64,000 nt of DNA from Agrobacterium sp. RAC06. Its GTDB lineage: Bacteria; Pseudomonadota; Alphaproteobacteria; Rhizobiales; Rhizobiaceae. Where the stretch lies: contig NZ_CP016499.1 of the NCBI RefSeq assembly GCF_001713475.1, positions 930,001 to 994,000 of the forward strand, in the 5' to 3' direction. The notes beneath the pieces are model-generated. The model did no database searches. It had not been told where the DNA came from and was given only the letters and a program-made list of their open reading frames with translations. Of this stretch, positions 42,701 through 47,126 are shown piece after piece (position 1 is the stretch's first letter; every line of letters begins with the position of its first letter). The position numbers were made by a program, and so were the translations under genes.

Positions 42701-43486
42701 CGTCTCGGCGAAATCTTCCTTGACATGAACAAGGAAGGCTCGGCCCTTCGCGCCTTCATCAACAACTTCGCCATCTCCGTCTCGCTCGGCCTGCAATATG
42801 GCGTGCCGCTCGAGGAATATGTCGACGCCTTCACCTTCACCAAGTTCGAGCCGGCCGGCATGGTCACCGGCAACGACGCGATCAAGAATGCGACGTCGAT
42901 CCTCGACTACGTCTTCCGCGAGCTGGCGATCTCCTATCTCGGTCGCCACGATCTCGCCCATGTCGACACCTCTGACTTCTCGACCACGGCACTTGGCCGC
43001 GGCATGAAGGAAGGCAAGGCAGACGTCGTCTCCAAGGGCCTGACCCGCGGTTACAAGCCGACGCTCGTCTCCAGCCACATGCCGGCAGCGGCGGGCAGCG
43101 AGCCCAAGGGTGCCGCCACCGCCCTCCCCGCCAAGGCGTCTGCCACCGTCACCGCCTTCTCCTCTTCGGGCGCCACCGCCCGCAAGCTCGAAGTGACGAC
43201 CGCTGTTGCAACCTCTGAAGTCGTTTCCTTCAAGCGCGACTACGAGGAGCGCGCCGTGGAACTGGCCGAGGAGATCGCCTCCGAAAGCGTCTTCACCGAC
43301 GCTGCGGCGGATGAGGCGGCAGCTGCCAAGGCCGACGCCAAGAAGCTCGAGGCCTCCCGCCGCATGCGCTCGATCGCGCAGGGGTATACGGGCAACATGT
43401 GCTCGGAATGCCAGAACTTCACGATGGTGCGGAACGGCACCTGCGAGAAGTGCGACACGTGTGGCGCGACGAGCGGGTGCAGCTGA
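39704..43486 (+). CDS. nrdJ: Vitamin B12-dependent (class II) ribonucleotide reductase
   Basis: This 1260-residue enzyme reduces ribonucleotides to deoxyribonucleotides using an adenosylcobalamin radical, independent of oxygen. Key segments: [21 protein letters not shown] (active-site cysteine), [14 protein letters not shown], and [16 protein letters not shown] near the specificity and active-site loops. The C-terminal tail [19 protein letters not shown] continuing to [10 protein letters not shown] carries the redox-active and zinc-binding cysteines. [17 protein letters not shown] segment and a long Ala-rich spacer precede the tail. It is followed by a rho-independent terminator. Confidence 0.97.
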
Positions 43487-43511
43487 TTAGCTGAGAATTG
43501 AACGAGATTTC

Positions 43512-43540
43512 GGCCCGGGGGAAACCTCGGGCCTTTTGTT
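43512..43540 (+). terminator. Rho-independent terminator of nrdJ
   Basis: GGCCCGGGG (43512-43520) and CCTCGGGCC (43525-43533) pair (one G-T) around a GAAA tetraloop and are followed by TTTTGTT. It lies 26 bp after the nrdJ stop. Confidence 0.9.
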
Positions 43541-43559
43541 GCGATGATGAGGTCAGCCA

Positions 43560-44294
43560 ATGAATGAATTCAACTGGACGTGTCCTTACTGTTCAAATCA
43601 TCAAACCGTGGTCAGCGCCAAGTTCGATGCCTCCACAGTACGCCTTAATGTCGGAGATACAGCCGATGGAAACTGTGTTGGCGTGAAAATCACGTCAATC
43701 GGATGCTCTAATACCTCGTGCAAGAACGTAACAATCGATGTTTCTTATGGAAAGCTGACTCAAAGCCAGTTCACTCATGACTACATACTTAGCAGAGCGA
43801 CACTAACCGTACCAATAAAGCCGGAGAGCCGTGCGCGCGCGCTGCCACAGTGTATTCCCGCGCCAATTGCCAATGACTATTCCGAAGCTTGCCGGATTTC
43901 AAATCTGAGCCCGAAAGCATCAGCGACCCTTGCAAGACGTTGCTTGCAAGGCATGCTTAGAGATTTTTGCGGCATTACAAAGCCGACCCTCCATCAGGAA
44001 ATCAACGACCTCAAGAAGCAATTCGATGAAGGACATGCCCCCAGGGGCGTATCTGAAGAGAGCTTCGAAGCCATTGAAGCGATCCGTAAGATTGGCAATA
44101 TCGGTGCTCATATGGAGAAAGACATTAACGTGATCGTCGATGTCGAACCGGATGAAGCAGAACTGCTACTCAGTCTCGTGGAGAACTTGTTCGACGATTG
44201 GTACATTGCCCGCCAAAAGCGGCAAGACAGATTAGCACGCGTAACCGCGAGTGTTGAAGAGAAAGAAGTCATCCGGAAGGGTCCTTCGGAATAG
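43560..44294 (+). CDS. DUF4145 protein with N-terminal zinc-ribbon-like cysteines
   Basis: The protein is 244 residues. The N-terminus has CPYC and then a C..SC pair (about residues 8-55), likely a zinc ribbon. The C-terminal half, RRCLQGMLRDFCGI and then IEAIRKIGNIGAHMEKD, is the DUF4145 HEPN-like helical domain, which often appears in restriction and defence-related proteins. It uses visibly more A/T-rich codons than its neighbours (AAT, ATA, TTT), and lies between nrdJ and a repeat tract, so recent acquisition is likely. No restriction gene is adjacent. Confidence 0.75.
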   Translation: MNEFNWTCPYCSNHQTVVSAKFDASTVRLNVGDTADGNCVGVKITSIGCSNTSCKNVTIDVSYGKLTQSQFTHDYILSRATLTVPIKPESRARALPQCIPAPIANDYSEACRISNLSPKASATLARRCLQGMLRDFCGITKPTLHQEINDLKKQFDEGHAPRGVSEESFEAIEAIRKIGNIGAHMEKDINVIVDVEPDEAELLLSLVENLFDDWYIARQKRQDRLARVTASVEEKEVIRKGPSE

Positions 44295-44311
44295 CATCTG
44301 AGGGGACCCCA

Positions 44312-44431
44312 CCTCCCCATGCGGGGGAGGCCGGAAAATCGAAGGCTTAGGCCAGCGCAAGCGGCCTAAACTTCAGATTTTCCTGGAGAGGGGCGCGGTT
44401 CCGTTGCCACCCGCCTCACCGAGCCCCTCTC
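44312..44431. repeat. Compound palindromic repeat downstream of the DUF4145 gene
   Basis: Three nested hairpins follow one another: CCTCCCC/GGGGGAGG (44312-44330), a long stem from AAAATCGAAG..TTAGGCC to GGCCTAA.CTTC.GATTTT (44335-44381), and GAGAGGGGC/GCCCCTCTC (44386-44431). This looks like a mosaic intergenic element and is distinct from the REP family that follows. Confidence 0.65.
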
Positions 44432-44472
44432 TTGCGAAATCTGAGGTTTGGCCCTGATCGGCGAAGGTCTAG

Positions 44473-44634
44473 GCTTGCGTCTGGATCCTCGGGTCAAGCC
44501 CGAGGATGACGGAGTGTGGGGAGGCTGCGGGTATCCTCCTCCACCGTCTTCATCGCACGAGGCCTGAGGAGAATACCTAGCCACACCCCTAAGGTCGTCA
44601 TCCTCGGGCTTGACCCGAGGATCCAAACACAAGC
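44473..44634. repeat. REP-type mosaic element, copy A (complete)
   Basis: The element begins GCTTGCGTCTGGATCC and ends GGATCCAAACACAAGC. Each end has a REP hairpin (TCCTCGGGTCAAGCCCGAGG core) in opposite orientation. The centre has a further inverted repeat, GGTATCCTCCTC and GAGGAGAATACC, about 24 bases apart. It is one of three copies in this tract. Open frames across it are repeat-derived. Confidence 0.85.
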
Positions 44635-44701
44635 CCTTCAGCGGCAGCGACTGGCACAAGTGCCACCGGAACCCTAACATCAACTCGTAACGCTAGCTGC
44701 T

Positions 44702-44809
44702 GGGTATCCTTCCCTACCCGTCTTCATCGCACAAGGCCTGCGGAGAATACCCTTCCACTCCCCCATACTCCGTCATCCTCGGGCTTGACCCGAGGATCCA
44801 GACACAAGC
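44702..44809. repeat. REP-type mosaic element, copy B (left end missing)
   Basis: It shares the central inverted repeat (TATCC..CTTCATCGCACAAGGCCT..GGAGAATACC) and the right REP hairpin (44771-44800, ending GGATCCAGACACAAGC) with copy A. The left REP is absent. It ends 27 bp from the stop codon of the GIY-YIG gene. Confidence 0.8.
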
Positions 44810-44836
44810 CGTTCAACGACCGCGGCAAGCTCACCC

Positions 44837-45118
44837 TCACAACTCGTAATACAGATCCCGCCAGTCGGGATTGAACCCCTCGATCAACTCGATCTTCCAT
44901 TGCCGATACCAGCGCTTCAGCAACTTCTCCCGCTGGATCGCCGTGCCGATACGGTCGTGCTCTTCGTACCAGACCAGTTGCCGGCAGCCATACTTGGACG
45001 CGAAGCCTGGCGTCTGACCTTCCCGATGCTCGTAAATCCGCCGCTCCAGATCGGATGTCACACCGATATAGAGGGTGCCGCGTTTGTGGTTGGTGACGAT
45101 GTAGACATATCCCGCCAT
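44837..45118 (-). CDS. Single-domain GIY-YIG nuclease
   Basis: This 93-residue protein begins MAGYVYIVTNHKRGTLYIGV, then TSDLERRIYEHREG: the GIY-YIG fold with its catalytic Arg in ERRIYEH and a later Glu (KIELIEGFN region). It matches the small UPF0213/YhbQ-like group. It has no extra DNA-binding domain. The start ATG 45118 lies just outside a REP element; upstream codons (SSHKHTAR) come from that repeat, and there is no clear ribosome site. Inverted REP hairpins bracket the gene at 27 and 11 bp. The role is unknown. Confidence 0.88.
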   Translation of the reverse strand: MAGYVYIVTNHKRGTLYIGVTSDLERRIYEHREGQTPGFASKYGCRQLVWYEEHDRIGTAIQREKLLKRWYRQWKIELIEGFNPDWRDLYYEL

Positions 45119-45454
45119 GCGTGCAGTGTGCTTGTGACTGGATCCTCGGGTCAAGCCCGAGAATGACGGAGTGTGGGGGAGCTATCCTCCTCTACCGTTT
45201 CAATCGCCTAACGCCGGAGGAGAATACTTGCGCCTCCCTGAAGGTCGTCATCCTCGTCCTCGGGTTTAACCCGAGGATGACCCGAGGATCCAGACACAAG
45301 CCTTTCAGGCCAGCCGGTCACGTCAGCCCCCCACTTCCCGAAAAAAAGGGGGACGACTTCCGAAAATCCTCCAACAAAATCAACAAAACAAAGTTTTTTC
45401 ATCCCCGCCCATTTCCACCCCTTTACCCTAGTCCCAGTCCCGCCCTCGGATACA
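45119..45454. other. REP element copy C followed by AT-rich spacer; no genes
   Basis: 45130-45301 is the third REP element, described separately. 45302-45454 is a less GC-rich spacer with A and T runs (AAAAAAAGGGGG near 45341 and GTTTTTTC near 45394), which could hold a promoter or terminator for the structured region to the right. No gene is supported. Confidence 0.5.
45130..45301. repeat. REP-type mosaic element, copy C (with an internal duplicated hairpin)
   Basis: It begins GCTTGTGACTGGATCC with a plus-orientation REP hairpin (variant CCCGAGAATGACGG), contains the central inverted repeat (TATCCTCCTC..GGAGGAGAATA), and ends in a doubled REP hairpin (TCCTCGTCCTCGGGTTTAAC..GAGGATCC) and GACACAAG. 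It starts 11 bp from the GIY-YIG start codon. Confidence 0.82.
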
Positions 45455-45838
45455 CCTGACGATGCGATGTCAGGCGAGGCGGGGCCGGCGCCGGGGTGAT
45501 GGGCTTTCGCAGGCACGAATCCCCGGCCCGCTGCAACGGTCTCCCTCTGGACGTGGGGCTGGTAACGAAGGTGAAGGGGTCGGATGCCCCGACGCCGGAT
45601 ACCCCGATCGGAAGGACGTGCCTCAGAGGCACACAGACAAGGCGCCCACGCCGTCGCGAACTTGACCAGACGGCGGGGCGGATAAAACGGCGGGGATGAT
45701 CGGCCGAGGTCGCCAATGACCGGAGCCCCCATCCCCCGGGCGAGGGTCCCGGTCGGAATGGTGCACCATCCGGCGGGAACCTCCCGGGCCACCGGCCAGG
45801 CTCTGGCAGAACACTCTTCGGAGGACTCTGTCAAAGCC
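45455..45838. ncRNA. Candidate large structured RNA (strand unknown)
   Basis: This 384-base stretch has hairpins almost end to end: CCTGAC/GTCAGG (45455-45474), GGGCCGG/CCGGCCC (45482-45529), GTCGG/CCGAC (45579-45593), GTGCCTC/GAGGCAC (45618-45632), CGCCGTC/GACGGCG (45649-45675), GGGGATG/CATCCCC enclosing GGTC/GACC (45692-45736), a 54-base rod centred on ATGGTGCACCAT (45735-45788), and a stem with a CTC-TTCG-GAG loop (45799-45838). Proteins predicted across it look like artefacts. It does not match rnpB, tmRNA, 6S or SRP RNA motifs that I know. A cluster of DNA palindromes is the alternative. Confidence 0.45.
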
Positions 45839-45850
45839 GGACCCTACGCC

Positions 45851-45889
45851 CGGTCATCCTCGGTCCTCGGGTCAAGCCCGAGGATGACG
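45851..45889 (+). repeat. REP hairpin copy
   Basis: It has the same TCCTCGGGTCAAGCCCGAGG core as the mosaic elements, preceded by a partial duplicate (CGGTCATCCTCGG). It directly follows the structured region. Confidence 0.8.
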
Positions 45890-45942
45890 AGACCGTCGCC
45901 GCCTTGCCAGAGAGACGCATGCAGTGGGAATAGACGCCGAAC

Positions 45943-45996
45943 GAGGCGCCGGAAGGAGCCACATACATTACTTAGACAGGTTGCTTCTGGCGCCTC
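45943..45996. repeat. Long-armed inverted repeat
   Basis: GAGGCGCCGGAAG (45943-45955) and CTTCTGGCGCCTC (45984-45996) pair at 12 of 13 positions across a 28-base AT-richer loop. It sits between two REP copies. Confidence 0.7.
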
Positions 45997-46000
45997 GTCC

Positions 46001-46024
46001 GATCCCTCGGGTCAAGCCCGAGGA
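46001..46024 (+). repeat. REP hairpin copy (truncated)
   Basis: GATCCCTCGGGTCAAGCCCGAGGA is a shortened version of the local REP hairpin, the last copy in the tract. Confidence 0.75.
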
Positions 46025-46098
46025 CAAGTTTCAAACCACCCGGAGGGAGTTGATCCCGACCGGCGGCGAAGCTTGGGGTTTTTGAAATCGACAGATCA

Positions 46099-46212
46099 CC
46101 CTCACCCTGAGGTGCCCGACACATCAGGGCCTCGAAGGGCGAGGCCGCCGTACATCAATGCAGAGGAATGCTTCGAGGCCCGCGCTTCACGCGGGCACCT
46201 CAGCATGAGGGC
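46099..46212. repeat. Second REP family, compound palindrome
   Basis: CCCTCACCCTGAGGTGCCCG on the left is the near complement of CGGGCACCTCAGCATGAGGG on the right. Between them are GGGCCTCGAAGGGCGAGGCC and GCTTCGAGGCCCGCG. The pattern CCTCATGCTGAGGTGCCCG with CTTCGAGGCC is a common intergenic repeat of Rhizobiales. It ends about 110 bp before the DUF378 gene. Confidence 0.7.
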
Positions 46213-46635: not shown

Positions 46636-46782
46636 TTCGGATGGCACCTTTCATTCCGATGAACCCCGCGTCCCAAAAAAGTCCGCCCTGCCCCGTCCTT
46701 CGGCACCGCCCGGCCAACGCTTCCTTAACGGCCTTGCGGTACATTATGATAGATTAAAAGACTGGACGGAGACCCAAGCGAA

Positions 46783-47094
46783 ATGTCCAAACCGACCTTC
46801 CGCTTCACCCATTACGACCTGAAAGAACAGCGCGCCGGAACGATCATCGAGGTGACGCTGTCGGCCGTGAACAATGTGCGGCTAATGACGCCGACAAATT
46901 TCCAGCGGTTCAAGGAAACGCTGGACTTCAAGTTCCTCGGTGGCGTGGCGAAGAAATCGCCGATCAATATCGTCATTCCCGAGAGTGGCCACTGGCACTT
47001 GATCGTCGACATGGAGGGCCATCACGGACTGGCCGAATCCAAGGTCAAGATGATCGCGGCCCCTGCCGTGCAGCCGAAGCAGAAGGCCTCCTAA
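46783..47094 (+). CDS. DUF1883 family protein
   Basis: This 103-residue protein has HYDLKEQRAGTIIEVTLSAVNNVRLMTPTNFQRF and GHWHLIVDMEGHHG, matching DUF1883. Members are small beta-rich proteins, sometimes fused to TIR domains; here there is no fusion. The function is unknown. It converges with the amine oxidase gene 32 bp away. Confidence 0.82.
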   Translation: MSKPTFRFTHYDLKEQRAGTIIEVTLSAVNNVRLMTPTNFQRFKETLDFKFLGGVAKKSPINIVIPESGHWHLIVDMEGHHGLAESKVKMIAAPAVQPKQKAS

Positions 47095-47126
47095 GGCCTC
47101 CATCCCCTTCCGCCAAACCTTGACCG

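Follow-up and report, generated by a model that had tools for sequence, protein, structure and literature searches.

The repetitive extragenic palindromes (REPs) of Alphaproteobacteria belong mainly to one class, the CGTC REPs, which have a CGTC or TGTC tag, a stem of 8-9 bp starting with AT, a loop of 4-5 nt and a CCA tail, and which form dimers, according to the relevant parts of the survey by Di Nocera et al. (2013; PMC3733652). No transposase is associated with CGTC REPs in those same parts of the survey, and it is for this reason that their origin was left open there. The closest described system with a partner gene is that of the GTAG REPs and RAYT (REP-associated tyrosine transposase, or TnpA-REP). 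Here we describe a locus in a stretch of 64,000 nucleotides from Agrobacterium sp. RAC06 (contig NZ_CP016499.1, positions 930,001 to 994,000; hereafter the window) where a small GIY-YIG nuclease gene (44837..45118, minus strand, 93 amino acids, ATG at 45118) stands between inverted CGTC REPs. The gene and its surrounding REPs probably form a minimal mobile element, a counterpart of the RAYT-REP system in which the nuclease would act on the REP ends.

The REPs in the window read CGTC-ATCCTCGGG-CTTGA-CCCGAGGAT-CCA. The left one (44771..44810, plus strand) has a CGTC tag, a 9-bp stem, a 5-nt loop and a CCA tail followed by GACACAAGC, and the right one (45130..45168, minus strand) is its inverted copy; in both, the tag faces away from the gene. 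They share tag, stem, loop and CCA tail with the CGTC REP superfamily, and the genomic repetition that marks the superfamily, often as head-to-head dimers, is also found in this genome. The inverted arms (44758-44809 and 45130-45181) are 52 nt long, 94% complementary, and separated from the gene by 27 bp and 11 bp; the gene coordinates and these distances agree with those given when the stretch was first interpreted from its letters alone (the sequence-only reading). All REPs around the gene are parts of dimers, one complete (44472-44635), one half (44702-44810) and one complete (45130-45301). The first, a further whole copy to the left as that reading had claimed, is an inverted pair with tags inward and arms 79% complementary. 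A palindrome-like segment before the left REP (44702..44750) contains direct repeats and resembles the centre of this dimer, with the other REP absent, and the right REP is continued by a central segment and a second, imperfect REP (45169..45301) with direct repeats and an inverted pair.

REP placement at the window gene exceeds chance. The strict palindrome CCTCGGGN5CCCGAGG has 17 sites in the 4.96-Mb genome, six of which fall at genome positions 974487-976023, beside the nuclease gene (genome position 974840-975118); these sites cluster, so the six are not independent events. A second kind of unit in the genus, type B (type A being the window's kind), has the anatomy of the units described below for a sister genus, with inverted ends CGTC..ATCTACTGCCG in the gene copies, and gene-less type-B pairs with these ends are present in the window's own genome. 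On inspection by eye, pairs of REPs arranged tail to tail at a distance of 250-600 bp enclose the gene in 6 of 6 type-A and 7 of 7 type-B cases.

The association extends to relatives of the gene. A profile of 21 sequences was compared with genomes from the genus (63), the class (190) and the phylum (200), and the loci sampled were the best matches plus 40 further stretches. Genes that scored more than 90 bits and covered 75 or more profile positions were assigned to the close family and small GIY-YIG genes below 65 bits to a distant set, with partial matches excluded. At one gene per genome (125 genomes, three excluded for short flanks), a [CT]GTC REP lies within 150 bp on either side of the close-family gene in 77 of 122 genomes, versus 1 of 40 distant genes, 7 of 283 control open reading frames (ORFs; at least 100 amino acids, taken from twenty 20-kb stretches of those genomes) and 83 of 5000 random intervals (Fisher P = 1e-12 against the distant genes and 5e-42 against the ORFs, uncorrected for kinship). 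REPs thus lie closer than at random genes, which the sequence-only reading had expected. They occur on both sides in 34 of 122 close-family cases, compared with 0/40, 0/283 and 6/5000, respectively. An unbiased comparison of flanks also finds strong inverted repeats (score of at least 25) at 21 of 31 close-family genes in the genus and 50 of 90 others, versus 10/40 distant genes, 1/283 ORFs, 27/2000 random intervals and 5/500 mispaired family flanks. Chance or a general intergenic effect is rejected on the strength of the controls (ORFs, random intervals and distant genes).

A second sample consisted of named loci in GTDB genomes, the best 80 of 570 relatives, of which 74 were usable and some perhaps come from species of the first sample. 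Here a REP lies within 150 bp at 53 of 74 loci and on both sides at 32, and the flanks score at least 25 at 39. The REP-flanked loci include records of Chloroflexota, Bacteroidota, Thermodesulfobacteriota, Kerfeldbacteria and LCP-89; at single loci of Zixibacteria, Omnitrophota and Cytophagia the detector found no REP. Where REPs occur on both sides, their tags point outward in 25 of 34 cases in the genome sample and 19 of 32 among the named loci. REP stem sequences vary widely among lineages, and the nuclease is therefore linked to REPs as a class rather than to a single inherited stem. The type of loop follows the protein tree with 16 changes (mean of 27.5 and minimum of 23 in 200 shuffles; 115 of 216 proteins, those with one clear loop type), a clustering that kinship by itself could explain. 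One genome (G209; loci L079 and L153-L161) has 12 listed GIY-YIG profile matches with REPs of several different stems close by.

It might be argued that REPs simply accumulate in the spacers around dispensable genes, one of which happens to be the nuclease gene. REPs are mostly intergenic, in the part of the survey that describes their placement (PMC3733652), and 45 of the 122 family genes are without a detected REP, as a passenger gene might be. Against this stand the frequencies themselves (63% and 72% in the two samples versus 2-3% in controls), the pairing of two related subfamilies with two different palindromes, and the common ends of the copies. A passenger gene or a chance placement is very unlikely, the least likely of the explanations considered here.

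The ends of the putative element are best seen in a genus that is sister to the window's and belongs to the same family; 61 of its genomes were searched with a stretch containing one locus. Among the matches listed, 55 of 60 copies elsewhere that reach the gene start at query positions 1166-1180 and 47 of 60 at 1174-1180 (one of the 60 was added by eye), and position 1178 is the first base of CTTCGTC. These start points are independent evidence for the ends of the unit, as judged by sequence comparison. Both ends are present in 31 of 32 copies examined, and the 31 represent 22 sites if copies with both flanks alike are counted once or 14 if one similar flank suffices. The first 40 bases inside the ends are mostly 87-100% conserved, and conservation drops outside them. 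Of 10 short matches retrieved, 4 are complete units of 208-222 bp that have these ends but no gene. It is from this comparison of copies that we infer mobility.

Terminal inverted repeats with discrete ends are a property of insertion sequences that these units share, and target-site duplication is one that they lack: no consistent duplication was found at the junctions of the 31 copies, where the longest exact direct repeat is 0 bp in 27, 1 bp in 2 and 4 bp in 2. Several insertion sequence families are likewise without target-site duplication. The flanks mirror each other at 11 or more of 12 bases in 4 of the 31 copies (L380, L388, L394 and L396), and local flank scores of at least 15 occur in 2 of 31 true pairs versus 18 of 930 mispaired ones, which is only suggestive of insertion into palindromes. 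The clade-B nuclease unit (L068-L074 and further clade-B loci) often follows the same neighbour gene across species, a recurrence that suggests old, inherited insertions.

Relatives of the window locus lack the whole block of dimer, part dimer, gene and dimer (44462..45337) at the matching place. In locus L332 of genome G082, unique sequence corresponding to 43410-44449 (in two pieces) and 46648-47099 brackets 215 bp, versus 888 in the window; no REP was detected in this gap, and the profile search found no close-family gene in G082. Loci L333-L336 and L338 resemble L332, but their left anchor (44307-44461) is multicopy and they therefore weigh less. The comparison leaves out L337, which aligned. 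The absent segment (about 44462-45337) is larger than the gene and two REPs. Another genome, G062, carries a clade-A gene in two separate locations (L340 and L341); one is 97% and the other 91% like the window's, and REP dimers accompany both. The left anchor is itself an element of about 155 bp just outside the block that occurs twice in some related loci. To the right of the unit, a stretch of about 750-900 bp (45335-46211) has several copies per genome in the genus, often adjoining type-A REPs; in the window's own genome they lie near 534k, 975k, 2627k and 3039k, and the stretch has no Rfam match.

These occupied and empty sites bear on the main rival explanation, a homing-like spread in which the nuclease cuts gene-less REP pairs and repair templated by a gene-bearing copy brings the gene in, so that the gene would be the sole moving part, with the REPs as both target and homology arms. 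In favour of it, GIY-YIG domains occur in homing endonucleases, the protein matches a model of a group I intron endonuclease weakly and below threshold, and gene-less pairs with the same ends exist. Homing would add a gene to REPs already in place, whereas gene and REPs are missing together in L332 and, with the same neighbour genes as the query locus, at no fewer than five loci of the sister genus (L353, L355, L356, L369 and L376), so that gain or loss involved whole units. No site was found in these comparisons both with and without the gene between its REPs, save at L351, a copy of the query locus in which both REPs are present and the gene is decayed. Homing is thus an unlikely account of the distribution, and movement of the gene together with its REPs is the reading that we prefer.

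The fold of the window protein is predicted with confidence (AlphaFold2; mean predicted local distance difference test score, pLDDT, 96.1). In a Pfam search with the 105-amino-acid ORF from an upstream TTG, GIY-YIG (PF01541, E = 2.1e-17) and T5orf172 are the sole matches, with none to an HUH tyrosine transposase. Positions Y6, Y17, R27, E64 and N83, which by analogy with I-TevI we take to be catalytic, are invariant across 34 sequences, so the protein has both the domain and the conserved predicted catalytic positions of the GIY-YIG superfamily. The sequence-only reading was right about the start of the gene: no clear ribosome site is visible ahead of the ATG at 45118, and the frame stays open upstream into the REP (114 amino acids open), with a TTG start at 45154 inside the repeat.

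Binding, cutting and movement are what a mechanism would add to the observed association, boundaries, gene-less units and selection. Most probably the nuclease would recognise the REP hairpin, as a cruciform or as a single strand, and would cut at or close to the CGTC-tagged end. GIY-YIG nucleases are expected to cut by hydrolysis, and joining would therefore have to come from host repair or copying; host repair could then copy or re-join the unit at new sites. Gene-less REP pairs would be mobilised in trans by the same enzyme; the REPs would be the ends, the gene the autonomous part and the REP pairs the non-autonomous part of the system. The lack of a consistent target duplication and the few copies within palindromes fit a cut-and-repair model of this kind, short of proving it.

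The gene is under purifying selection, as estimated from median ratios of nonsynonymous to synonymous substitution rates (dN/dS) of 0.048 for 8 clade-A genes including the window's, 0.067 for 12 clade-B genes and 0.061 for 7 copies from the sister genus. Such strong constraint, together with the REPs that occur without the gene, would also suit a host function in which the nuclease acts in repair or in RNA or DNA processing at REPs and stays near them for regulation while something else moves the REPs. A host gene would not be expected to be as patchy as this family, which has a match at E <= 0.001 in 39 of 63 genus genomes, nor to occur in the multiple copies listed for G209 or as units in many different flanks. 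We therefore consider a host function very unlikely.

The number of REPs away from the gene is related to the presence of the gene. For type-A REPs the median is 3 in the 8 genomes whose gene is at least 90% like the window's and 0 in the 55 that lack such a gene (P = 0.004), and for type-B REPs it is 3 in 14 genomes with a clade-B gene and 1 in the 49 others (P = 0.0008), in tests that are uncorrected for kinship and use counts transcribed by hand. Clades were assigned here by protein identity; an earlier assignment that leaned on the REP flanking the gene gave P = 0.0003 for type A, and a 75% identity cut gave P = 0.001. With the first clade sets, the cross comparisons gave P = 0.97 for type-A REPs with the clade-B gene and P = 0.08 for type B with clade A.

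Several observations weigh against a mobile element of nuclease and REPs. The 100% conservation of the end hexamer arises partly by construction and is not evidence, because this motif was used to locate the ends. Tags point inward at 5 of the 34 two-sided loci, and the relatives compared yielded no empty site whose junction is exact to the base. Beyond the 45 of 122 family genes without a detected REP within 150 bp, four further close-family genes from a search of the order have neither repeat described here (0 of 4). The expectation, stated in the sequence-only reading as one that would tell against it, that homologues usually lack the repeats is contradicted in the genus (a REP on one side or more in 31 of 31) and about evenly borne out elsewhere, where only 46 of 91 have a detected REP. 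Some of the negatives are detector misses of long-loop REPs (G318, G322, G430 and G384), and the remaining genes may be truly without REPs. A second such expectation, that repeats occur in genomes without the gene, holds in part within the genus: of the 55 genomes that have no gene at least 90% like the window's, 19 contain type-A REPs, and of the 49 that have no clade-B gene, 31 contain type-B REPs. This fits persistence after gene loss and also mobilisation by another enzyme. Finally, genes 78-89% like the window's (G068, G070, G075 and G080) adjoin another stem, CTCGCC..GGCGAG, which speaks against a tight match of protein to stem.

The distant GIY-YIG set, intended as a negative control, has inverted repeats of another kind in its flanks (CATCCTGAG..TCGAAGGATG and variants). 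This GAG..TCGA palindrome, a pattern drawn up after the flank comparison had shown it, lies within 150 bp of 19 of 40 distant genes, 0 of 122 close-family genes, 1 of 74 named loci and 8 of 283 ORFs, and all 19 positives fall among 31 loci, 28 of them from the same class. The prediction was then fixed and 249 genomes of the order were searched with a profile of this sister subfamily, setting aside two loci used for the pattern and two partial ones. The palindrome is present at 11 of 15 new full-length loci, and a [CT]GTC match at 1 of 15, where it overlaps a stretch resembling the GAG..TCGA palindrome. Neither repeat was found at the seven other GIY-YIG genes in the order search, and neither palindrome at the nine distant small GIY-YIG genes outside the class. 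The sister subfamily (GYTxxRRPV..KGWxRxKKEALI; L172-L211 and L407-L424) often has its palindromes as inverted pairs.

That the sister subfamily has a palindrome of its own suggests a broader rule, in which each nuclease family is matched by a type of palindrome. The boundaries of the copies, the units without a gene and this second palindrome speak for a nuclease that is a partner of the REPs rather than a passenger, and they lend support to the RAYT-like partnership with a nuclease of a different fold that the sequence-only reading had proposed. We lean, by a little, towards a broader view in which small GIY-YIG nucleases form a class of one-gene mobile elements, each subfamily owning a palindrome superfamily (CGTC REPs or GAG..TCGA) that would be spread with and without the gene by the cutting of hairpins and not by transposase chemistry. 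If true, this would name the missing partner of the CGTC REPs and that of a second repeat group. If CGTC REPs have a dedicated GIY-YIG partner, their origin would become open to direct test, a second, unrelated enzyme type would join those known to act with REPs, and a small protein family that is very common but unnamed would gain a role; if the nuclease alone moves REP units, these would be a new class of element.

Among known systems, the nearest solved relatives of the window protein by sequence are the UPF0213/YhbQ-type proteins (PDB 1zg2, E = 2.9e-8; 1ywl, E = 7.2e-5), but distant genes of this appearance have neither palindrome nearby (the 0 of 9 and 0 of 7 above). Free-standing GIY-YIG homing endonuclease genes share the domain and a selfish distribution, whereas the window gene is intergenic and bounded by REPs, and no intron, intein or conserved target gene was seen. 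No paper linking GIY-YIG to REP elements or RAYT was found by title among open-licence PMC papers. The CGTC REPs of Di Nocera et al. (2013) agree with those described here in the tag, the stem starting with AT, the loop, the CCA tail and the dimers; no transposase was found in the parts of that survey concerned with them, and here a GIY-YIG gene family lies between the REPs. The RAYT-REP system, with its REPtrons and REPINs, is alike in having a small gene between inverted palindromes that also occur without the gene, singly or in pairs, in its patchy distribution and in the tag at one end of the palindrome. It differs in its enzyme, an HUH tyrosine transposase there and a GIY-YIG nuclease here, and in its tag, GTAG there and CGTC or TGTC here. 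By analogy, the system in the window appears to work like RAYT-REP and yet is not a RAYT, having neither HUH transposase nor GTAG tag and probably relying instead on a nuclease that acts on REP ends.
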